Shown: in pieces, positions 11,395 to 32,227 of the stretch | How the letters are laid out: the number at the start of each line of letters is the position of its first letter | How positions within the stretch are numbered: position 1 is the first letter of the stretch | Origin: Gammaproteobacteria bacterium | Lineage (GTDB): Bacteria > Pseudomonadota > Gammaproteobacteria > Pseudomonadales > Azotimanducaceae | NCBI GenBank assembly: GCA_020832055.1 | Contig: JAFIFL010000015.1 | Location: 1 to 32,718 of the forward strand | Length of the DNA: 32,718 bases | Reading direction: 5' to 3' | The notes under the pieces: model-generated | Seen by the model: only the letters and a program-made list of their open reading frames with translations | Database searches by the model: none | What the model was told of the DNA's origin: nothing | Position numbers and translations under genes: made by a program

Positions 11395-13932
11395 TTAAAG
11401 GTGCATGGCGTCCACGAACTCCTGCTCCACGGCGCCGGGCTGGAACCCGGTATAGGGCAGGGTCTCGGTCACGTCCAGGCCGGGCCGGTGCAGGGTCGGA
11501 CGGCGCTTGCGCTCGTAGCGTCGGGCCGGGGTATTGACGATGGGAATCAGCTCACCGGCGCCCAGGCCCGCAGCAACCCGCTCGCTGTTGACCGGACCGT
11601 AGTCCGTGGCGCGCTGTCGCGGGGTGCGTCCTTCGGCCTCGATCATGGCGCGCATGCGCGCGGGCGAGGTCTCCTGGCCGTGGGCGGCACCCGCGGCGCG
11701 GGTGATGGTCTCATTCATCAGCGTGCCGCCGAGGTCGTTGCAGCCGGCTTCCAGGCAGGCGCTGACGCCTAGGTGACCCATCTTCACCCATGAGGCCTGG
11801 ATGTTGTCGATCAGGGGGTGCAGCACCAGCCGTGCCACCGCGTGCATGAGCACGGCCTCGCGGAAGGTTGGTCCCTTGCGGGCCTGACCCTTGAGGTAGA
11901 GCGGCGCCTCCATGTGCACGAAAGGCAGCGGTACGAGTTCGGTAAAGCCGTGGGTCTTCGCCTGCAGGTCGCGAACGCGCAGCAGGTGGCGGGCCCAATG
12001 TTCCGGCCGGTCGACGTGGCCGTACATGATCGTAACGGTAGTGTGGATGCCGACCTTGTGGGCCGCCTCCATCACCTGCAGCCACTGGGCCGTGTTGATC
12101 TTGTCCGGGCAGATGATGGCCCGCACCTCGTCGTCGAGAATTTCCGCGGCGGTCCCGGGCAGGGTGCCGAGACCGGCGGCCTTCAGGCGCTCGAGGTAGG
12201 GCGTGATTTCCATGCCCAGGGTGGCCGCGCCCTGCCAGATTTCCAGCGGGGTAAAGGCGTGGACGTGGATGTCCGGGCAGACTTCCTTCACCGCCTTGAC
12301 GATGGTCAGATAGGTGTCGCCGGTATATTCCGGGTGGATGCCGCCCTGCATGCACACCTCGGTGGCGCCCCGGTCCCAGGCTTCCTTGACCCGGCGCTGG
12401 ATTTCCGCGATGTCGAGATCGTATGGGCGGCCGCGCAGATTCTCGGACAGCTTGCCCTTGGAGAAGGCGCAGAACTGGCACTTGAAGTAGCAGACGTTGG
12501 TGTAGTTGATGTTGCGATTGACGCAGAAACTCACCTCGTCGCCCTTCATCTGCTTTCTCAGGGCGTTGGCGGCGGCGCATACGGCAGTGAAGTCCTCGCC
12601 GCGGGCGGCAAACAGGGTGACGATGTCGGCCTCGTCGAGACGCTCGCCGCCGCCGGCACGACTGAGTATCTCCATCAGGCGCGGGCTCACCCGGCGCGGA
12701 TCCGGTTGGCGACCGATGCGTTCGAGGTCGTGAGTCGGCGGGTCGATATCGGCGCCGGGCGTCCAGTCATCGGTACGCGGCAGCCCTTCGGCATCGATCT
12801 GTCGCAGTACCGCCGTCTGCAGTGCGGGATCGAGCCAGACGCCATAGTGCTGGGCGTAGCGCGGGTAGATGGTCAGGCGCTCGTGGAGCAGCTTGCCGGC
12901 GCCGTAGGTTTCTCGGGCGAGCTGGTCGAGATGGGGCCACGGGGCTTCCGGATTGACGTAGTCGGGCGTCACCGGCGACACGCCGCCCCAGTCGTTGATT
13001 CCAGCATCCACCAGACGCGGCAGTACGCCCGGGCTCAGATTCGGGGGCGCCTGCAGGCTCATGTGGGGTCCGAACAGGATCCGCGTCACCGCCAGGGTCC
13101 AGAGCATCTCCTCGAGATCCGGTTCCGGGGCGCTGGCCATCCGGGTCCCGGGCTTGGCGCGGAAGTTCTGGACGATGATCTCCTGGATGTGGCCGTGGCG
13201 GTCGTGACTGTCGCGGATGGCGAGCAGGGACTCGATGCGCTCGGCACGAGTCTCGCCGATACCGATCAGAATGCCGGTGGTGAACGGCACCTTGGCGATG
13301 CCTGCCTCGTCGAGGGTCGCGAGTCGAACCGCAGGAATCTTGTCCGGTGAGCCGTGGTGGGGCATGCCCTTTTCGGTGAGCCGGTCGGAGGCCGACTCGA
13401 GCATGATACCCATGGACGCCGACACCTTGCGCAGGCGTGCGAATTCCTCGGCTGTCAGATTGCCGGGGTTCAGATGGGGCAGCAGACCGGTCTGTTCGAA
13501 CACCGCGCGGGCAGCGGCCTCGAGGTAGTCCACGGTGCTGGCGTAACCCATCTCCGCCAGCGCCTCACGGGCGGCCCGGTAGCGCAGCTCGGGCTTCTCG
13601 CCGAGGGTGAACAGGGCTTCCCGGCAGCCCGCCGCAGCGCCCTGACGGGCGATTTCCACCACCTGCTCGATGGAGAGGTAGGGACGGTCGAGGTTCCGCG
13701 GCGTGGTGGCGAAGGTGCAGTAGTGGCAGACGTCACGGCAGAGCTGCGTCAGCGGAATGAACACCTTTCTGGAATAGGTGACCAGACTGCCGAAGCCGTC
13801 GTCGCGCAGGGTCGCGGCGGCGCTCATCAGGGCCGGGACGTTGTCCTCGGTGGCCAGACTCATGGCCTCGGCATGGGACGGTAGTCTGCCGCCGAGCGCC
13901 CGAGCCGTGATGGCTGCGCTGTCTGCTCTCAT
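11395..13932 (-). CDS. fbiC: 7,8-didemethyl-8-hydroxy-5-deazariboflavin (FO) synthase, CofG-CofH fusion
   Basis: An 845-residue fusion of two radical SAM modules, the length of actinobacterial FbiC (about 850). The N-terminal CofG-like half carries C65-x3-C69-x2-C72 (QLCRDVCHYCTF); the C-terminal CofH-like half carries C481-x3-C485-x2-C488 (NVCYFKCQFCAFSK). Each cysteine triplet binds a 4Fe-4S cluster that cleaves S-adenosylmethionine. Together they join tyrosine and 5-amino-6-ribitylamino-uracil into FO, the deazaflavin chromophore of F420, in the cytosol. The ATG at 13932 overlaps the cofC stop in an ATGA, so translation is probably coupled. The fusion form, rather than separate cofG and cofH as in archaea and cyanobacteria, suggests a bacterial, perhaps actinobacterial-related, origin. 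Confidence 0.95.
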   Translation of the reverse strand: MRADSAAITARALGGRLPSHAEAMSLATEDNVPALMSAAATLRDDGFGSLVTYSRKVFIPLTQLCRDVCHYCTFATTPRNLDRPYLSIEQVVEIARQGAAAGCREALFTLGEKPELRYRAAREALAEMGYASTVDYLEAAARAVFEQTGLLPHLNPGNLTAEEFARLRKVSASMGIMLESASDRLTEKGMPHHGSPDKIPAVRLATLDEAGIAKVPFTTGILIGIGETRAERIESLLAIRDSHDRHGHIQEIIVQNFRAKPGTRMASAPEPDLEEMLWTLAVTRILFGPHMSLQAPPNLSPGVLPRLVDAGINDWGGVSPVTPDYVNPEAPWPHLDQLARETYGAGKLLHERLTIYPRYAQHYGVWLDPALQTAVLRQIDAEGLPRTDDWTPGADIDPPTHDLERIGRQPDPRRVSPRLMEILSRAGGGERLDEADIVTLFAARGEDFTAVCAAANALRKQMKGDEVSFCVNRNINYTNVCYFKCQFCAFSKGKLSENLRGRPYDLDIAEIQRRVKEAWDRGATEVCMQGGIHPEYTGDTYLTIVKAVKEVCPDIHVHAFTPLEIWQGAATLGMEITPYLERLKAAGLGTLPGTAAEILDDEVRAIICPDKINTAQWLQVMEAAHKVGIHTTVTIMYGHVDRPEHWARHLLRVRDLQAKTHGFTELVPLPFVHMEAPLYLKGQARKGPTFREAVLMHAVARLVLHPLIDNIQASWVKMGHLGVSACLEAGCNDLGGTLMNETITRAAGAAHGQETSPARMRAMIEAEGRTPRQRATDYGPVNSERVAAGLGAGELIPIVNTPARRYERKRRPTLHRPGLDVTETLPYTGFQPGAVEQEFVDAMHL

Positions 13933-22997: not shown

Positions 22998-24434
22998 CTA
23001 CAGCCAGCGCAGATTCACCGTCGTGTCGATGGCGGCCTGCACTTCCGGGTCGGCCAGCATGTTGTCGAGGACGAAGGTCTCGCGGCCGTCCAGATAGCGG
23101 TCCACCAGCGGCACGAGCCGCCGCACGGCACGGCCGAGGTCGGCTTCCACCGGAGTGATGATCGCCAGCATGGGGTCGGGTCCCCGCGGCAGACTCAGGT
23201 GATTGAAACCCATCACCTTGGAGATGATGCGTCCAAGCGGTGTCCGCCGACGCATGTGGCGAATGCCCCAGTGGTTGATGTGGTGGGCCAGCGGCATCCG
23301 GCGGGTATCGAGCTGACCACGCTCGAACAGCCGCCGGAAGCCCACCTCGACGAGCTCCCGGGCCAGCAGGCGCGGAAACTGGTTGTTGTCCACCCAGCCG
23401 ACGCAGCGGAAATCCGGGTTGAGCAGGAAATCCACGGGCGCGAAGAAGGGGTCGAACTCGTGGTAGCCGAGACGTCTCAGGTTCTCCTGAATGCCCGGAT
23501 GGCCGATGGAACTCACTGAGGCGATGCGCGGCAGTCCGAGGCGCTGATAGACCACCTGCGCAAGGCTGGTGCAGCTGACGTACTCGGGGTCGGGGTCACA
23601 GGTGTAGAAGTTGTAGCCACGAGCCTGTGCGATGGCGTCATGGGCCGCTGCGCCCACCTGCGCGCCGTGTTCCGGGCGCAGGGCTTGGTGGCGGTAGACC
23701 TCGGCGTAGGCCACGTAGCGGGCATTGAGGAAGACGTTCAGGGGCACGGCCCGCAGCCCCTTCTCATAAGTTTCCACCACGGCCGGGAAGCGCTTGCCGC
23801 CCGCCTCGAGGATGGCGAACACGGCTGCGTGGGGACAGTAGCCCTTGGGTTCGCTCAAGGAGGTGTAGACGGAATTGCCGTCGAGATTGACGTTGGCGAG
23901 CAACACGTCGCCGGGCTGGAGCGTCAGGCCCCGATAACGGACGAGTTCGCCCTCGAACTGGTACTCGGCGAAGGCCGGCATTGTCTGCCACTTGGCGAAG
24001 GGCCAGGCGCTGGACCGGTTGACCTCGATTTTCAGGTCCACGTCCGGACCTGCGAGCTGATGGTGCTCGGGTGCGTCCGGCAATCTCAGTCCCTGATGCG
24101 CGAGCACCCGGCCGAGCGTGGAGGACCGGTCTGGCAGCAGCGCTTCGAGGCGCTTCCGCTGACTCTGGTCCAGATACAGGTTCAGCGCGATGAGATTGTC
24201 GACCAGCCTGTCCACCTCCAGGGATCCTGCGGCGGACTGCGCTTCAGCGGTGTTCAGCAGTTTCGCGAGTACGCGCTGACGCCAGTGACTGGCCGCCAGT
24301 TTGGCACCGAGAATGGCCCGGGCGTCGCCCCTGGGGCGCGGCAGGTTCAGGTAGGCGTCATTGCCGGCGCGGATATGGTCGCCGAGGACAGCAGGACAGG
24401 CGGCATCAGGCAGCACCGGTTCGAAAGCGGTCAT
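22998..24434 (-). CDS. Permuted NlpC/P60 (YiiX-like) papain-fold protein
   Basis: A 478-residue protein. LTLQPGDVLLANVNLDGNSV and then CPHAAVFAIL (H202) correspond to the GD-V and His blocks of YiiX/YebB-type permuted NlpC/P60 amidases; YVSCTSLAQVVYQRLG supplies the cysteine (C288) after the histidine, as expected for the permuted order. About 165 residues before and 190 after this core are not recognised. Such proteins cut amide or thioester-like bonds in peptidoglycan or lipids, but the substrate here is unknown. No signal peptide is seen from the chosen start, so it may be cytosolic. The frame is open upstream to 24761; I chose the ATG at 24434 because the upstream part crosses a minus-strand terminator. 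Confidence 0.6.
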   Translation of the reverse strand: MTAFEPVLPDAACPAVLGDHIRAGNDAYLNLPRPRGDARAILGAKLAASHWRQRVLAKLLNTAEAQSAAGSLEVDRLVDNLIALNLYLDQSQRKRLEALLPDRSSTLGRVLAHQGLRLPDAPEHHQLAGPDVDLKIEVNRSSAWPFAKWQTMPAFAEYQFEGELVRYRGLTLQPGDVLLANVNLDGNSVYTSLSEPKGYCPHAAVFAILEAGGKRFPAVVETYEKGLRAVPLNVFLNARYVAYAEVYRHQALRPEHGAQVGAAAHDAIAQARGYNFYTCDPDPEYVSCTSLAQVVYQRLGLPRIASVSSIGHPGIQENLRRLGYHEFDPFFAPVDFLLNPDFRCVGWVDNNQFPRLLARELVEVGFRRLFERGQLDTRRMPLAHHINHWGIRHMRRRTPLGRIISKVMGFNHLSLPRGPDPMLAIITPVEADLGRAVRRLVPLVDRYLDGRETFVLDNMLADPEVQAAIDTTVNLRWL

Positions 24435-25245: not shown

Positions 25246-26859
25246 TCAGGTCCCGCTGGCGGTCGTGAATCCATAGGCGACCAGCGCAATCACACCGGCC
25301 CAGGCCACCAGCCCGGCGTAGGCTGGCCACCAGGCGCGTCCAAGACCGCTGCGATCGAATTCGGACTCCTGCGGCGCCGGCCTCGGCAGCTGCAGACTGA
25401 CCAGGACGGCGGTCAGCCAGGTAGCCACGAAGCCGGTGACGTTCCACCACAGCCAGGAAATGTCGGGGTGGCCCCAGGCCAGGTAGAGGTTGAGGCCGAA
25501 TCCGGCCAGCAGACCACAGAGCACGCCGGGTTGCCCGGTCCTGCGGGTGAGGAGACCGAGCAGGAACACCGCCAGCAGTGGGCCGTTGATCAGGGAACCG
25601 ATCATGTTGATGGCCACCAGTACGGAATCGGCGATGGCCTCGACGTAGAAGGCCATGATCAGGGTGACCACCCCCCAGAACACCGTCAGCAGCTTGGCCA
25701 GGATGAACTCCCGACGCACCGACAGCGGCTGGTTGCGAAAGCGTCGGACGATGTCTTCCATGGTGGTGGCCGACAGCGCATTGAGCACCGAGTCCAGGGA
25801 AGACATGGCCGCCGCGAACAGCCCGACCATCACCAGACCCACCAACCCGGGCGGGAACTGCTCGAACACGAACTGGGGTACAGCCAGATTGAAGTTCGGC
25901 GCAGTCTCGCCGCTGCCCGTGGTGCGCAGCGGCAGCCGCTCGACGAACCCCGGATCCATGCTCGCGTAGGCGGCCAGACAGACCCCGAGCAGGCAGTAAC
26001 TCAGCACCAGCGGGAAGCGCAGCAGGCCATTGAGCAGCAGGGCTCGGTTGCCATCAGCCACCGTCCGGGATGCCAGCAGGCGCTGGGTCTGGCTCTGGTC
26101 GCAGCCGTAGTAGCTGACGTAGAGAAACAGGCCACCGAACAGCATGGGCCAGAAGGCGTAGTCGTGGCCATCGCCCCAGCCGGTGTGACTGAAGTCCAGG
26201 CTGGTCAGCCGTTCCGAAGGCACGCTGGCGAAAACTGCGGTGACGCCACCGAGCGCATCCACGGCCACCCAGATCGCCAGCAGTATGGCGCCGCTGAGCA
26301 CGGCGAGCTGGATCACGTCGCTGACGATGACGGCCCGCAGGCCGCCGATGGCATCGTAGACAATGGTGACGGTTGCCAGCAGCAGGACGGCGGTGAGGAA
26401 ATCCGTGTCCAGGCAGATCGCGAGAATCAGCCCCGCCCCGTAGACCGTCACGCCGGTGGCGAACGCGCGGACCAGCTGGAACACCAGGGAAAGGGTCAGT
26501 CGCGTGGCAAGACCGAAGCGGCGCTCGAGGTAGGCGTAGACGGATACCAGTCGCAGACTGCGCAGGGTCGGCAGCAGCAGCGCCATGATGACGATCATGG
26601 CCAGCGGTACGGCGAGTTCGTACTGCAGCCAGAGCAGACCGCCACCGACGGAGAAGGCGACGAAGGCCGGGGCGCCGAGGATGCTGTTGGTGGAACACTG
26701 AGTGGCCATGGTGGACAGGGCAATGCTGACGGAGCCAGAGCGGTTGCCTCCAAGGTAGTAATCGCGGCGAGTGCGCTGCCCGCGGGCAATGACGATGGCA
26801 AGCCCGATCATGGCGGTCATGTAGAGACCCACCACCAGCCAATCCACCGGGGTCATCAT
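25246..26859 (-). CDS. Sodium:solute symporter family transporter
   Basis: A 537-residue membrane protein with about 13-14 hydrophobic segments. DWLVVGLYMTAMIGLAI at the N-terminus, RRDYYLGGNRSGSVSIALSTMATQCSTNSILGAP in sections, and GLFAAAMSSLDSVLNALSATTMEDI in the second half are hallmark SSS (SLC5-like) blocks; the last is the family signature. It imports a small organic solute with Na+. The gene is divergent from the GH13 phosphorylase and lies beside the glucosylglycerate genes, so a sugar or glycoside substrate is plausible but unproven. The start is the ATG at 26859 (a second ATG follows at once); upstream sequence in the frame is not membrane-like. Confidence 0.88.
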   Translation of the reverse strand: MMTPVDWLVVGLYMTAMIGLAIVIARGQRTRRDYYLGGNRSGSVSIALSTMATQCSTNSILGAPAFVAFSVGGGLLWLQYELAVPLAMIVIMALLLPTLRSLRLVSVYAYLERRFGLATRLTLSLVFQLVRAFATGVTVYGAGLILAICLDTDFLTAVLLLATVTIVYDAIGGLRAVIVSDVIQLAVLSGAILLAIWVAVDALGGVTAVFASVPSERLTSLDFSHTGWGDGHDYAFWPMLFGGLFLYVSYYGCDQSQTQRLLASRTVADGNRALLLNGLLRFPLVLSYCLLGVCLAAYASMDPGFVERLPLRTTGSGETAPNFNLAVPQFVFEQFPPGLVGLVMVGLFAAAMSSLDSVLNALSATTMEDIVRRFRNQPLSVRREFILAKLLTVFWGVVTLIMAFYVEAIADSVLVAINMIGSLINGPLLAVFLLGLLTRRTGQPGVLCGLLAGFGLNLYLAWGHPDISWLWWNVTGFVATWLTAVLVSLQLPRPAPQESEFDRSGLGRAWWPAYAGLVAWAGVIALVAYGFTTASGT

Positions 26860-27029
26860 GGCGCCCGCGCCGGGCCGGGAGCCGTTACCGGCCGTGCAGC
26901 CTGCTGTGGCAACATGCCGGCATGCGCCCTGCAGGGCGATACCGCCCCGGCAAGGCCTTCGGTACGCAACCGCTGCCCGCTGCCGGAACGAACTTGCGCG
27001 TCGCAGGGCGCGGTGACGGAATCCGCCAC

Positions 27030-28811
27030 GTGAATCATCCAGGTAGCCACGGTGACACGCTGCACGGTGCCTTTGCAGCCCGGGTCCACGCCCTGCGCAG
27101 CGAACTGGGCACGCTCTATGGCCCGGAGGCCGCCGGAGATATCCTGCGTGCCGTGCTGGCGACGGTGGCAGAGTGTCGCCCGGCGCCATCGACACCGCCT
27201 CCGCGGAGTCTCGACCCCCGGCAGTTCGGTGCCGAGGACGTACTTCTGATCACCTACGGTAATACCCTCGAACGTGCTGGCGAGATGCCTCTGACCACCC
27301 TGAAGCGTTTCGTGAGCGAGCGGCTCGACGGTGTGGTCAATGCGGTCCACGTGCTGCCGTTCTTTCCTTTCAGCTCCGACGACGGCTTCGCTGTGATCGA
27401 CTTCTACAGCGTCGACCCGGCCCTTGGGGACTGGCCAGACATCACGGCGCTCAGTGGCGAAGTGGCGTTGATGGCCGACCTGGTCATCAATCACGTCTCC
27501 CGGGAAAGCCTGTGGTTCATGGACTTCGTCAACGACTCCGAACCCGGCAGGGACTTCTTCCTGACGCTTGCGCCGGACACGGACGTCAGCCGGGTGGTGC
27601 GGCCCCGCAACACGCCGCTGCTCGTGCCCATCCATACCTATCGCGGACTGCGCCACGTTTGGGCCACGTTCAGTGAGGATCAGATCGACCTGGATTTTTC
27701 CAGGCCCCGTGTGCTCACAGAAATGATCCGGGTGCTCTGCAACTACCTGCGCGCAGGTGCGCGTCTGATCCGGCTGGATGCCATCGCCTATTTGTGGAAG
27801 GAGTTGGGAACCCCCTGCATCCACCACCCGAACACCCACGCGGTGGTGCGCATCCTGCGTCTGGTCAGCGAACTGATGTGTGATCCGGGCCGCGATCCGG
27901 TGGTGATGATCACCGAAACCAACGTGCCCCACAGCGAGAACGTCAGCTATTTCGGCAGCGGGGACGAAGCCCACATGGTCTATCAGTTCTCCCTGGCGCC
28001 GCTGGTGCTGCACGCCCTCACCCGGGGCAGCAGTCGCTACCTGATGCAGTGGGGCGCGGTGCTCGACCCGCCACCGCCTGGATGCACCTTCCTCAACTTC
28101 ACCGCCTCCCATGATGGCATTGGTCTGCGTCCGGCCGAGGGTCTGGTGCCGGAGCAGGACATCGACGTCCTGGTGGATCTCATGCACGCCTTCGGCGGGT
28201 TCGTCAGCATGCGCCTGATGCCGGATGGCAGTCAGCGACCCTATGAGATCAACATCTCCCTGTTTGATGCCCTGCGAGGCACGTTTGCCGGCGAGGATGC
28301 ATGGCAGGTCCAGCGGTTTCTCTGCAGTCAGGTGCTCGCCATGAGCCTGCAGGGTGTGCCCGCCGTCTACATTCACAGCCTGCTGGCAACCGGCAACCAC
28401 ATCGAGGGCGTCGAGCGCAGCGGGCGCACCCGATCCATCAACCGCAGGCAGTGGCAACTCGACGACATCGACGCGCGGCTGGCGGATCCCGGCACTGCCA
28501 CGGCGAAGGTGTTCACGGCGCTGTCGTCCCTGCTGCGACTGCGTTGCTGCGTGCCTGCCTTCGCGCCGGGGGCAGCGCAGACCTTCATTCCCGTCGGCGA
28601 TGACTGGGTGACGTTCATTCGCGGGGAGGGTGCCATGGCGGTGGCCGTGGTGATCAACGTCACGGCCCGGACCTGCCGCCTCGACGAGCAGGCCCGGGCG
28701 GCTCTCGGGTGTGCGCGTCAGGTTCGGGATCTCATCAGCGACGAGGTGTTCGCTGCCGGCGGACCGATCGAGGTGGCCCCGTATTGCTGCCTGTGGCTGC
28801 AGGCTCATTAG
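27030..28811 (+). CDS. GH13_18 phosphorylase, probably glucosylglycerate phosphorylase
   Basis: About 593 residues. VHVLPFFPFSSDDGFAVIDF, LMADLVINHVS, LIRLDAIAYLWK (nucleophile D250), VMITETNVPH (acid/base E296) and TASHDGIGLRP (D362) are the catalytic blocks of the sucrose-phosphorylase subfamily GH13_18. Members phosphorolyse sucrose, glucosylglycerol or glucosylglycerate to glucose-1-phosphate. Beside gpgS and gpgP, glucosylglycerate is the most likely substrate, with a role in recycling the solute. The stop lies 3 nt from the convergent gpgS stop. The frame opens at an ATG at 26922 (629 residues), but that extra part lacks a ribosome site and typical codon bias; I prefer the GTG at 27030. 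Start confidence is low; family confidence is high. Confidence 0.85.
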   Translation: MNHPGSHGDTLHGAFAARVHALRSELGTLYGPEAAGDILRAVLATVAECRPAPSTPPPRSLDPRQFGAEDVLLITYGNTLERAGEMPLTTLKRFVSERLDGVVNAVHVLPFFPFSSDDGFAVIDFYSVDPALGDWPDITALSGEVALMADLVINHVSRESLWFMDFVNDSEPGRDFFLTLAPDTDVSRVVRPRNTPLLVPIHTYRGLRHVWATFSEDQIDLDFSRPRVLTEMIRVLCNYLRAGARLIRLDAIAYLWKELGTPCIHHPNTHAVVRILRLVSELMCDPGRDPVVMITETNVPHSENVSYFGSGDEAHMVYQFSLAPLVLHALTRGSSRYLMQWGAVLDPPPPGCTFLNFTASHDGIGLRPAEGLVPEQDIDVLVDLMHAFGGFVSMRLMPDGSQRPYEINISLFDALRGTFAGEDAWQVQRFLCSQVLAMSLQGVPAVYIHSLLATGNHIEGVERSGRTRSINRRQWQLDDIDARLADPGTATAKVFTALSSLLRLRCCVPAFAPGAAQTFIPVGDDWVTFIRGEGAMAVAVVINVTARTCRLDEQARAALGCARQVRDLISDEVFAAGGPIEVAPYCCLWLQAH

Positions 28812-28814
28812 CGA

Positions 28815-30068
28815 TCAGCGGCCGCCCTGGGCCACCACCTTCAGACCCGATCGCGCTTCCCTGTAGTCCTGATCCACCGCCGCGTGGAGCTGATCGAAGA
28901 CGTCCGGCAGGGCGCTGCGGACCCGGTTCCAGCTCGGAATGAACGGCGTCTCCTGAGGTTTGTCGAGGAAGATCTCGCCAGCGGTGAGGATGTTGGCGGC
29001 AAACAGTTCCACCGCCCGCTCCTCGGCATCCCGGTCGAGGTGCAGGCCGTTGATCAGCGCGTCGTTGTAGTAGCTCTGCACGAAGTCCAGCGCCATGCGG
29101 TAGTAGGTGGCCTTGATGGAGCGAATGGTGCCCATGGAGAACACCTCGCCGGTGGTGGCCAGCTTGCGGAAGACCGCCTTGACGATGTCCGTGCTCATGC
29201 GCGCCAGACCGGTGTCCGGATCGTCCTCTGACAGCGGCTGGTGCTTGTGGTCATAGTTGTCCGCCACGTCCACCTGACACACCCGCTGGCTGCCGTAGTT
29301 GCGGTAGACCTCGGACAGCACGCCGATCTCGAGTCCCCAGTCGCTGGGAATGCGCAGGTCCCGCAGCACGTCCACCTGCATGGAAAACTCACCGGCCAGC
29401 GGATAGCGGAAGCTGTCCAGGTAATCCAGAAAAGGATTGTGTCCGAGGACCTGCTTCAAGGCCCGGTTCAGCGGGGTGACCAGCAGGCGGCAGACGCGGC
29501 CGTTGAGCTTGCCGGAGGCGACCCGCGGGTAGTAGCCCTTGCAGAACGCGTAGTTGAACAGCGGATTCACCACCGGGTAGATGAGGCGGGCGAGCATGCT
29601 GCGGTCGTAGGTGAGAATGTCGCAGTCGTGCAGGGCGACGGCCTGCGCAATGCCCGAGGCCTGGATGTAACCGAGGCAGTACCAAACGTTGCGGCCCTTG
29701 CCGAGTTCCATGGGCGCAAGCCCGCGTTTGCCGAGCATGGCGTCGATGGCGCCGAGGCGGGGGCCGTCGTTCCAGAGAATGCGGTGGTGCTGAGGCAGGC
29801 GTGCGAAGTATTTTACTGCGTGGTGATACTGCTCCTCGTCGGCGCGGTCGAGACCGATGACGATCTGACTGAGGTAGGGGACCTTGGCCAACTCGTCGAC
29901 GATGGCGCCGAGGGCAGGGCCCTCGAGTTCGGAGAACAGGCTCGGCAGGACCAGGGCCATGGGGCGGTGGCGTGCGAACTGCACCAGTTCGGCTTCGAGA
30001 GCTTCCACGGGACGCTGGGAGAGGTTGTGCAGGGTGGTGATGATGCCGTTCTGGAAGAAGTCGCTCAT
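28815..30068 (-). CDS. gpgS: Glucosyl-3-phosphoglycerate synthase (GT81)
   Basis: A 417-residue GT-A glycosyltransferase. MSDFFQNGIITTLHNL is the characteristic N-terminus of the archaeal/Persephonella-type GpgS; ALHDCDILTYD carries the DxD metal site (D148, D150); KGYYPRVASGKLNGRVCRLL and later GLEIGVLSEVYRNYG fit the same family. It transfers glucose from an NDP-glucose to 3-phosphoglycerate, the first step of glucosylglycerate synthesis, a compatible solute. The ATG at 30068 is 4 nt after the gpgP stop with GAGG nine bases upstream; an upstream ATG at 30083 overlaps gpgP and lacks a spaced ribosome site. Mannosyl-3-phosphoglycerate synthase (GT55/78) is less likely given the N-terminus. 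Confidence 0.88.
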   Translation of the reverse strand: MSDFFQNGIITTLHNLSQRPVEALEAELVQFARHRPMALVLPSLFSELEGPALGAIVDELAKVPYLSQIVIGLDRADEEQYHHAVKYFARLPQHHRILWNDGPRLGAIDAMLGKRGLAPMELGKGRNVWYCLGYIQASGIAQAVALHDCDILTYDRSMLARLIYPVVNPLFNYAFCKGYYPRVASGKLNGRVCRLLVTPLNRALKQVLGHNPFLDYLDSFRYPLAGEFSMQVDVLRDLRIPSDWGLEIGVLSEVYRNYGSQRVCQVDVADNYDHKHQPLSEDDPDTGLARMSTDIVKAVFRKLATTGEVFSMGTIRSIKATYYRMALDFVQSYYNDALINGLHLDRDAEERAVELFAANILTAGEIFLDKPQETPFIPSWNRVRSALPDVFDQLHAAVDQDYREARSGLKVVAQGGR

Positions 30069-30072
30069 GAGA

Positions 30073-30891
30073 TCATGCCTCATCCCTCAGCAGTGCCTGG
30101 ATGCACTGCTGCCAGCCTGCAGGTCCCGGCTCCGGGCTCCTGACCACGCCTTCGCGCCGCTTCAGCGGCATCCAGCTGGCGTCCGGCCGGCGGATGACAA
30201 CGGCCACGTCCGCCAGCTGCAGCATGTCGGCATCGTTGGGGCTGTCGCCGGCCGCAATGACCCGGTAGCGGATGTCAGGATGGGCAGCCGTGTAGCGGCC
30301 GACCAGTTCGCGCATGGCCTCGGCCTTGTCGACCTTGGGCATGACGTGCAGAAAGCGGCCGCCGCTCACGGCCCGCAGGCCGGCGCGGGTGAGTTCGGCG
30401 ATGAAATCCCGGCGGATGGCTTCCGAACCCTCCCAAATGCCGGGTTCAGAGCCCTGGCGCTGCCGCGCGCGCTGGGCAGCCATCTCGTCGAGACCGGTCA
30501 CGGCGGCCACTTCCTTCGCGCTCATGTCACCGAAGCCCCGGAACGGGAAGTGATGCCGCGACCGGATCTGCTCGAGGATGCTGCGAATTTCCCGGTAGGT
30601 GGGGCCGAAGTGCTCGACCTGCAGTGGCGTGCTCGAGGTAATCCCCGGGTCGTTGCGGAAGTAGCCCTCAGGCAAGGCTACACCGGCGCCATTCTCGAAC
30701 ACGATGGGGTGGATCAGATCCATGGCGCGCCGCAGCAGGCGCATTTCCGCCAGGGTCTTGCTCGAAGTGAGGATCAGCGGGATGCCGCGTTCGCGTATGG
30801 CGGCAAGAGCAGCGCTTGCCGCCTCGAAGCGATAGCCCTCGTCCAGCAGGGTGCCGTCGAGGTCGGTGAAGATCAGGGTTCCGGTCTTCAT
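30073..30891 (-). CDS. gpgP: Glucosyl-3-phosphoglycerate phosphatase (HAD, MPGP family)
   Basis: A 272-residue HAD phosphatase. FTDLDGTLLD (D10 nucleophile, D12) is motif I, LTSSKTLAEM motif II, and AAGDSPNDADML (G215-D220) motif IV; GFGDMSAKEVAAVTGL in the cap domain is typical of the mannosyl-/glucosyl-3-phosphoglycerate phosphatase family. It dephosphorylates the GpgS product to glucosylglycerate in the cytosol. The frame runs 31 residues further upstream, but MKTGTLIFTDLDG at 30891 is the family N-terminus with AAGGCGG about ten bases before it. It is the first gene of a two-gene operon with gpgS and lies about 60 nt downstream of the start expected from a sigma-54 promoter match. Confidence 0.88.
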   Translation of the reverse strand: MKTGTLIFTDLDGTLLDEGYRFEAASAALAAIRERGIPLILTSSKTLAEMRLLRRAMDLIHPIVFENGAGVALPEGYFRNDPGITSSTPLQVEHFGPTYREIRSILEQIRSRHHFPFRGFGDMSAKEVAAVTGLDEMAAQRARQRQGSEPGIWEGSEAIRRDFIAELTRAGLRAVSGGRFLHVMPKVDKAEAMRELVGRYTAAHPDIRYRVIAAGDSPNDADMLQLADVAVVIRRPDASWMPLKRREGVVRSPEPGPAGWQQCIQALLRDEA

Positions 30892-30961
30892 GGCGGTAAA
30901 CCGCCTTGCGATAGCCATGACTGCTCGGTCCACCATGCCCCCAGAGGCGACAGGCTGTGGA

Positions 30962-30978
30962 AAGCAGATCCCGTGCCA
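30962..30978 (-). promoter_or_regulatory. Candidate sigma-54 promoter of gpgP-gpgS
   Basis: Reading the minus strand from 30978: TGGCACGGGATCTGCTT. The invariant GG and GC are present with exactly 10 bases between them, and the full element TGGCACG-N4-TTGCT is matched except for one base (C for T). The start would be near 30952, some 60 nt before the gpgP ATG. It is the best promoter match in the window. Confidence 0.6.
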
Positions 30979-31101
30979 GCGCATGGGGTTGCGGTCGGGG
31001 CCCGATTGGGGGATCGATGGGCTCTCGGGCGGCCAGGCCGCGCAGCGAGGCGCCCCGATTCGGTGCGCCGTTCGATTCTGGCGCCAGATTGGTGCATGGC
31101 T

Positions 31102-32040
31102 TCAGGCGGCAGCGGCACGATTCATGGCGGCCACCGCAGGCAGCACCTGCTCGATGAGCTGCCGGGTCTGATCGATCATGTCGTCCGTGTCGGCGGCCAT
31201 GGGCCGAAGGATGAACTTGTGGGCACCGGCGGCGTGGTAGGCCCGAATGCGCTCGATGATGACTTCGCTGTCGCCAATGGCCACATAGGGCGTGGGGTCC
31301 TTGCCCAGGCGTTTCTCCAAAGCCGTCCGATACCGTCGTGACACGGCGTCCGCTTCTGCTCCGAAGCGAAAGCCGAAGCCGGCACCGAAGTGATCCTCGT
31401 CGATGCTGCGCCCAAGCTCCGTGGCGCGGGCCTTGATGGCACGGATCACCGGCTCCACCTGCTCCGGCGTATCGATGCCGGCCTGCCAGCCCGTGCTGAA
31501 GCGGGCGCTGCGCTCCACTGCCGCGTCTGCCGACCCGCCCGTCCACAGCGGCATGGGGTTCTGTAACGGGCGCGGTGAGATGGAGGCGCCGCGGTACTGA
31601 TAATGGCGTCCCTCGAAATCCACACTCTCCTCGCGCCAGAGGCGAGAGATCAGTTCGAGACCTTCGTCCGTGCGCTGGCCGCGGCCACGGGTGGGCACGC
31701 CGCGCGCGCCGTAGTCACTGCCCAAGGCACTGCCCACCCCGAAGGCCGGCAGCAGCCTGCCGTTGGAGAGAACGTCGATGGTGGCGCACTGCTTGGCCAG
31801 GATGAAGGGGTCCCGCAGTCCCAGCGACGCGACGTTCATGCCGAACTTCATGCGCTGGGTGGCGCCGGCGAGGGCGGCCATGACGCTCATGCACTCCAGG
31901 TTGGGCTCGTTGCCGACCAGGCGATCCGATTGCCAGATGGAGTCGATACCGCCGGCCTCGCACAGGTCGACCCAGCGCCAGAAGCCGGCGCCGTCCGCGA
32001 ACGGGAAATTGCCGATGCCGATACCCGCGCTGATGGTCAT
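31102..32040 (-). CDS. LLM-class flavin/F420-dependent oxidoreductase
   Basis: A 312-residue luciferase-like TIM-barrel oxidoreductase. ISAGIGIGNFPFADGAGFWRWVDLCEAGGIDSIW (in sections), MKFGMNVASLGLRDPFILAKQCATIDVLSNGRL, and FGVGSALGSDYGARG correspond to the family's core blocks. The C-terminal part IGDSEVIIERIRAYHAAGAHKFILRPM resembles the coenzyme F420-dependent N5,N10-methylenetetrahydromethanopterin reductase-like group. Cofactor could be F420 or FMN; the F420 operon 14 kb away makes F420 reasonable. The ATG at 32040 has GGGAG six bases upstream; the longer open frame to 32208 is not conserved-looking. Substrate unknown. It is divergent from panD. Confidence 0.82.
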   Translation of the reverse strand: MTISAGIGIGNFPFADGAGFWRWVDLCEAGGIDSIWQSDRLVGNEPNLECMSVMAALAGATQRMKFGMNVASLGLRDPFILAKQCATIDVLSNGRLLPAFGVGSALGSDYGARGVPTRGRGQRTDEGLELISRLWREESVDFEGRHYQYRGASISPRPLQNPMPLWTGGSADAAVERSARFSTGWQAGIDTPEQVEPVIRAIKARATELGRSIDEDHFGAGFGFRFGAEADAVSRRYRTALEKRLGKDPTPYVAIGDSEVIIERIRAYHAAGAHKFILRPMAADTDDMIDQTRQLIEQVLPAVAAMNRAAAA

Positions 32041-32199
32041 GTCTGCTCCCGATGGACGCTGCCGAAGATGGAGCCGCCAATCGAAGCATGGCCGACACCC
32101 AGTGGCAACCTGCCCACGGCGTGGGAGCGGGCTCGTCCGCGAACTTCGGCCCCAAGATGGCCTTCGCCTCGCCTGTTCGACCCAGGCGGGTCGCGCAGC

Positions 32200-32227
32200 T
32201 TGCATCACTGCCGCATCAACCTAGAAT
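32200..32227 (+). promoter_or_regulatory. Candidate panD promoter
   Basis: TTGCAT (32200-32205), a 16-bp spacer and TAGAAT (32222-32227, 5/6 to the -10 consensus) face panD, giving a leader of about 70 nt. The -35 match is weak. Confidence 0.3.

Follow-up and report, generated by a model that had tools for sequence, protein, structure and literature searches.

A predicted NtrC/sigma-54 promoter ahead of the glucosylglycerate genes gpgP-gpgS in a gammaproteobacterium and its recurrence in part of the order

The window analysed here, a stretch of 32,718 nucleotides from a gammaproteobacterium of the family Azotimanducaceae (order Pseudomonadales), carries two adjacent predicted genes for glucosylglycerate synthesis on its minus strand: gpgP (30073..30918), probably coding for a glucosyl-3-phosphoglycerate phosphatase of the MPGP family within HAD-IIB, and gpgS (28815..30068), coding for glucosyl-3-phosphoglycerate synthase. 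The gpgP product scored above the MPGP-family and HAD-IIB subfamily cut-offs and below every equivalog cut-off listed, while the gpgS product matched the GpgS_Meth model over its full length (1.9e-107 over positions 2-401 of 402) at 360 bits, the curated cut-off being 700. From sequence comparison, the gpgP start is likely the conserved ATG at 30918, since the conserved N-terminus reads (M/V)xIARR and the window protein begins MAIARR. Coding from ATG 30984, the mechanical start of the open reading frame, was rejected because two of the five genus sequences compared, L018 and L100, have an in-frame stop immediately ahead of the conserved start. For gpgS we took ATG 30068 by conservation within a frame open from 30083; the nearest relatives (L017-L019) align to the GpgS query from residue 6.

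Upstream of gpgP and co-directional with it lies a gene for an LLM-class (F420-family) oxidoreductase (31102..32208, minus strand), separated from gpgP by a gap of 183 nt. The window also holds a radical SAM protein with a CofH/MqnC-type C-terminal region (11395-13932, minus strand), which we take to be FbiC-like and to belong to F420 biosynthesis. On the other side of the operon, a GH13 gene of the sucrose-phosphorylase type (26922-28811, plus strand) converges on gpgS and stops just short of it. Its best solved relatives include sucrose and glucosylglycerol phosphorylases, and it is possibly a glucosylglycerate phosphorylase, in which case genes for breakdown and synthesis may adjoin; the window scan gave no sigma-54 match of at least 7 ahead of this gene. 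A gene of the sodium:solute symporter family (25246-27195, minus strand) is also found near the osmolyte genes.

In the gap ahead of gpgP we located a predicted sigma-54 (-24/-12) promoter element, TGGCACGGGATCTGCTT / TGGCACGGGATCTGCT, on the minus strand at 30978-30962 (core 30963..30978). It reads TGGCACG-N4-CTGCT, one mismatch away from TGGCACG-N4-TTGCW (TGGCACGNNNNTTGCW); a sigma-54 consensus is given in PMC12316311. The GG and GC dinucleotides are correctly spaced for a -24/-12 promoter in a TGGCAC-N5-TTGC-like context, and the mismatch is a C at the first T of TTGC, a base shared by all six genus sequences. The initial annotation had described both invariant dinucleotides as rightly spaced and one conserved base as missed, and the sequence of 30978-30962 agrees. 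The predicted +1 falls at about 30952, leaving a leader of about 34 nt to ATG 30918. Taken alone, the motif occurs at about the frequency expected by chance: allowing at most two mismatches, 7 matches lie in the window vs 6.94 expected, no excess, and the bacterium's own genome has 10 matches to TGGCAYGNNNNNTGCW vs 7 with the reversed pattern. When the 200 nt around the promoter were shuffled, an equally good sigma-54 site arose in 8 of 2000 trials. We place this element above chance because it is conserved in the genus and is accompanied by a correctly placed NtrC box.

That box, TGCACCAATCTGGCGCC, is predicted at 31080..31096 on the minus strand, just beyond the stop codon of the oxidoreductase gene, and agrees with 12 of 14 positions of the published consensus TGCACCAnnnTGGTGCA (as quoted in an excerpt of PMC8743547). 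It thus falls in the interval 31000-31150, where the initial annotation had proposed looking for NtrC-like sites. Its centre lies at about -136 and its start 118 nt from that of the sigma-54 element; shuffling the 200 nt that precede the promoter gave an NtrC site as good in 4 of 2000 trials. One further site in the window scores 12/14 (23557-23573). A second, weak NtrC-like site, CGCACCGAATCGGGGCG (31051..31067, minus strand, 9/14), is centred at about -107. We keep it as tentative because its counterpart in L017 has arms two bases wider apart, as judged by eye; in the other four genus regions, scanned at the same thresholds, no second NtrC site passed. The NtrC sites of E. coli glnA lie at about -140 and -108. 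The two gpgP sites, at about -136 and -107, resemble this arrangement.

The region between the two genes has diverged in relatives whose GpgS is 91-95% identical, and the promoter element stands out in it. Aligning five genus species shows 10 invariant columns among the 16 of the element, where stretches of 16 columns average 2.6; this is the top conservation score in the 183-nt intergenic region, which has 31 invariant positions overall. Both the sigma-54 element and the NtrC box stand ahead of gpgP in 6/6 genus genomes. In one of these (G004), TGGCACGGGAACTGCT precedes gpgP on a contig differing from that of its gpgS fragment. The NtrC site of each of the other five genus genomes matches 12 or 13 of 14 positions, and in L018 and L019 it has complementary six-base arms.

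We examined the specificity of this arrangement with a genus composite, consisting of the NtrC box and the sigma-54 element 90-120 nt apart, on the six genus genomes (∼26 Mb). It had exactly one match in five of the six, always before gpgP, and none when reversed; the gpgP of the sixth genome (G005) was missed, its gap being 123 nt (139 nt between starts). With a gap of 55-85 nt, the same genomes gave two matches, both at glnA, and none reversed. Since glnA was matched in only two of the six genomes, the composite misses true targets. A looser composite was run on 18 further genomes, 14 of them chosen for a positive gpgP region and four from the family coded f37 whose gpgP lacks the signal. 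The 12 matches (reversed, 0) comprised four at gpgP, two at glnA and one each at glnK, ntrB, a GlnII-type gene scoring below its curated cut-off, urtA, a family-3 solute-binding protein and an unassigned locus; the four f37 genomes without the gpgP signal had no matches. The urtA and family-3 solute-binding protein genes (L266 and L261, in genomes G483 and G532 of f37) are candidate NtrC targets.

We also took a stricter composite with a GGTGC arm to 390 genomes of the order that were not chosen by their gpg genes. It gave 75 listed matches in 68 genomes, and none when reversed; the window is not among them because its NtrC box reads GGCGC. We fetched 30 of the 75 loci and assigned 28, of which 27 lie before nitrogen genes or a glnK-linked porin family and one before gpgP. 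By similarity, 22 loci were identified (seven glnA, five with glnK, which are glnK-amtB loci, six TorF-family (gcw_chp) porins, one ntrB, two urtA and the one gpgP), and by family models six (three urea-carboxylase-linked ABC binding proteins, one TorF porin, one urease gamma and one nirB). L293 gave no family-model match and L291 held a short frame only. A further gpgP (G326) is among the remaining 45 matches. gpgP is a minority of the order-wide matches, and the test indicates that the composite seldom marks anything other than nitrogen genes. The reversed composite had no match in any of the four genome searches in which it was run.

For the distribution of the signal across gpgP loci, we started from 210 loci, of which 195 were usable; 11 were dropped for a missing motif or short upstream sequence and four had no gpgP match. 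Together with the window these represent 171 distinct gpgP upstream regions. A sigma-54 element was called with GG and GC fixed and at least 6 of 8 flexible positions matching, 25-170 nt before the gpgP DLDGT codons, and an NtrC box with at least 9/12 positions and a core of at least 7/8, upstream of the promoter with 35-170 nt between starts. The joint signal was present in 23 of the 171 regions, vs a mean of 0.05 and a maximum of 1 in 20 dinucleotide-shuffled sets. Controls on the 171 regions gave one positive with the promoter reversed, none with both elements reversed and two on the opposite strand, and these three are themselves right-strand positives. At strict thresholds (7 and 10) the joint signal was found in 15/171 regions and in none of each control. 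Singly, the promoter at 7 or more was found in 29/171 regions vs 0 reversed, and the NtrC box at 10 or more in 30/171 vs 0. An earlier motif rule, which dropped 81 of 206 loci, had given 15 positives among 107 regions at the same thresholds and is superseded by these figures.

The positives comprise 12 of 29 regions from the bacterium's own family, seven of 60 fetched from the order (∼one sampled per genus) and four named loci, those of Halomonas sp. bin15, H. cupida, H. litopenaei and Saccharospirillum salsuginis. By family, they account for 3/4 of the named Halomonadaceae, 1/5 of the named Saccharospirillaceae and 4/8 of f37. No joint signal was seen among the regions that the class search brought in from beyond the order (0/33), nor in Erwiniaceae (0/14), Cellvibrionaceae (0/8) or Methylococcaceae (0/3). 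In Erwiniaceae, Methylococcaceae and Cellvibrionaceae gpgP lies upstream of gpgS as in the window, but the loci lack the joint signal; for the 14 gpgP-gpgS loci of Erwiniaceae (between L067 and L094) we expect a different control. At these thresholds 148 of the 171 regions, including 17 of 29 from the own family, show no joint signal, and therefore other control routes must exist. On a quick gpgP tree the state of the joint signal changes at least 13 times.

The regulators that such a promoter would need are encoded in the same genome. RpoN scored 508 bits vs a cut-off of 277; across 24 genomes (own included) RpoN was matched in all, above the cut-off in 23, and NtrC exceeded its curated cut-off in 24/24. 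The ntrB and ntrC genes adjoin glnA in the bacterium's own genome, and ahead of that glnA lies a sigma-54 element (TGGCATTCATTTTGCA) preceded at 79 nt by an NtrC box, compared with 118 nt from start to start at gpgP. A locus coding for a TorF porin and amtB has a weaker sigma-54 match (GGGCATGGATTCTGCA) and several NtrC-like sites; before these genes, L131 has four overlapping or tandem NtrC-like sites at 1209-1269. Own-genome stretches around other NtrC-like palindromes were used for glnA and the porin-amtB locus only. In having an NtrC box upstream of TGGCA-N7-TGC, the gpgP-gpgS locus resembles the NtrC-activated sigma-54 promoters known for glnA, glnK-amtB and urea uptake. It differs from these targets in serving osmolyte biosynthesis rather than nitrogen uptake or assimilation, and in the weakness of its second box.

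These observations lead us to propose, with a probability of about 0.87, that gpgP-gpgS belongs to an NtrC/sigma-54 regulon in which nitrogen limitation switches on the synthesis of a nitrogen-free, anionic osmolyte. The element at 30978-30962 would be the core (-24/-12) of the sigma-54 promoter from which gpgP-gpgS is transcribed, and phosphorylated NtrC bound at 31080-31096 (about -136) would activate it from upstream, possibly helped by the weak site near -107. When nitrogen is limiting, NtrB/NtrC would turn on the two genes, and the cell would accumulate nitrogen-free, negatively charged glucosylglycerate, sparing nitrogen otherwise spent on glutamate. The initial annotation had already suggested that a sigma-54 promoter ties glucosylglycerate synthesis to nitrogen limitation, and the presence of box and promoter in 6/6 genus genomes and their recurrence in the order support that suggestion at the level of DNA.

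The physiological side of this proposal has precedents. PMC11009771 describes glucosylglycerate production at low nitrogen and the ability of the solute to substitute for glutamate, which puts in print the replacement of glutamate that the annotation had mentioned; an excerpt of PMC5924519 notes that non-nitrogen solutes including glucosylglycerate appear under limiting nitrogen, and one of PMC6608630 that nitrogen-starved mycobacteria accumulate it. For the low-nitrogen link, that review (PMC11009771) cites Goude et al. 2004, whose title names Erwinia chrysanthemi, a species not named among the gpgP-gpgS loci analysed here. The build-up in mycobacteria and cyanobacteria involves the same solute and stress as proposed here, in phyla that have other nitrogen regulators. 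The cyanobacterial nitrogen regulator is NtcA. That of mycobacteria is GlnR (excerpt of PMC3612183). For the marine Synechococcus WH8102, a computational prediction assigns gpgS and gpgP to an osmoregulation network whose likely global regulator is sigma-38 (PMC2874817), the one regulator of these genes encountered among the matches listed.

The titles and abstract beginnings of the open-access literature, among the matches listed, offered no account of NtrC/sigma-54 control of glucosylglycerate synthesis, in keeping with the annotators' remark that they had not seen a sigma-54 route described. Among the open-access papers that name both glucosylglycerate and NtrC, most have the solute in the reference list only; PMC5924519 does report low-nitrogen glucosylglycerate production, but NtrC comes up there solely to name the family to which NtrX belongs.

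Among other explanations, the one that survives best is compatible with NtrC/sigma-54 control: the sigma-54 promoter is real but secondary, and most expression is driven by a promoter that responds to salt or by transcription running on from the oxidoreductase gene, with nitrogen only modulating it. The co-directional oxidoreductase gene lies only the 183-nt gap upstream, our scan near the operon found no terminator-like site on the minus strand, and in Chromohalobacter, according to PMC3308980, glucosylglycerate is seen chiefly when salinity is low or in a mutant deficient in ectoine. However, a crude scan of the minus strand at 28700-31300 gave no sigma-70-like match, and we regard a dominant second input as unlikely, if well worth keeping in mind. 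That a real sigma-54 promoter answers to another enhancer-binding protein and a signal other than nitrogen appears improbable to us: NtrC-like matches do number in the dozens in the own genome (of 61 candidates, 43 were scored), many of them presumably sigma-54 activators, but the upstream site fits the NtrC box (12/14, with 12-13/14 in the other genus genomes) and the same composite elsewhere marks nitrogen genes almost exclusively. A chance match in GC-rich intergenic DNA, with no promoter, agrees with the near-background motif frequency in window and genome but is hardly credible given the conservation peak, the 6/6 genus genomes, the joint signal in 23/171 regions vs 0.05 in shuffled ones and the absence of reversed composite matches.

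On the NtrC/sigma-54 reading, the switch itself is of a familiar kind and gpgP-gpgS would be a target new to it, seen here only within part of the order. We consider it fairly probable that in several lineages of the order, including Halomonas, NtrC shifts cells from nitrogen-containing to nitrogen-free osmolytes, and that this control has been gained or lost repeatedly. The same architecture in the cultivated Halomonas cupida, Halomonas litopenaei and Saccharospirillum salsuginis provides a concrete route for testing, and the finding could guide glucosylglycerate production by nitrogen limitation. If the proposal is true, glucosylglycerate synthesis would be an arm of the nitrogen-starvation regulon in which salt physiology and nitrogen physiology meet, and the NtrC regulon would extend from nitrogen uptake to the choice of osmolyte.
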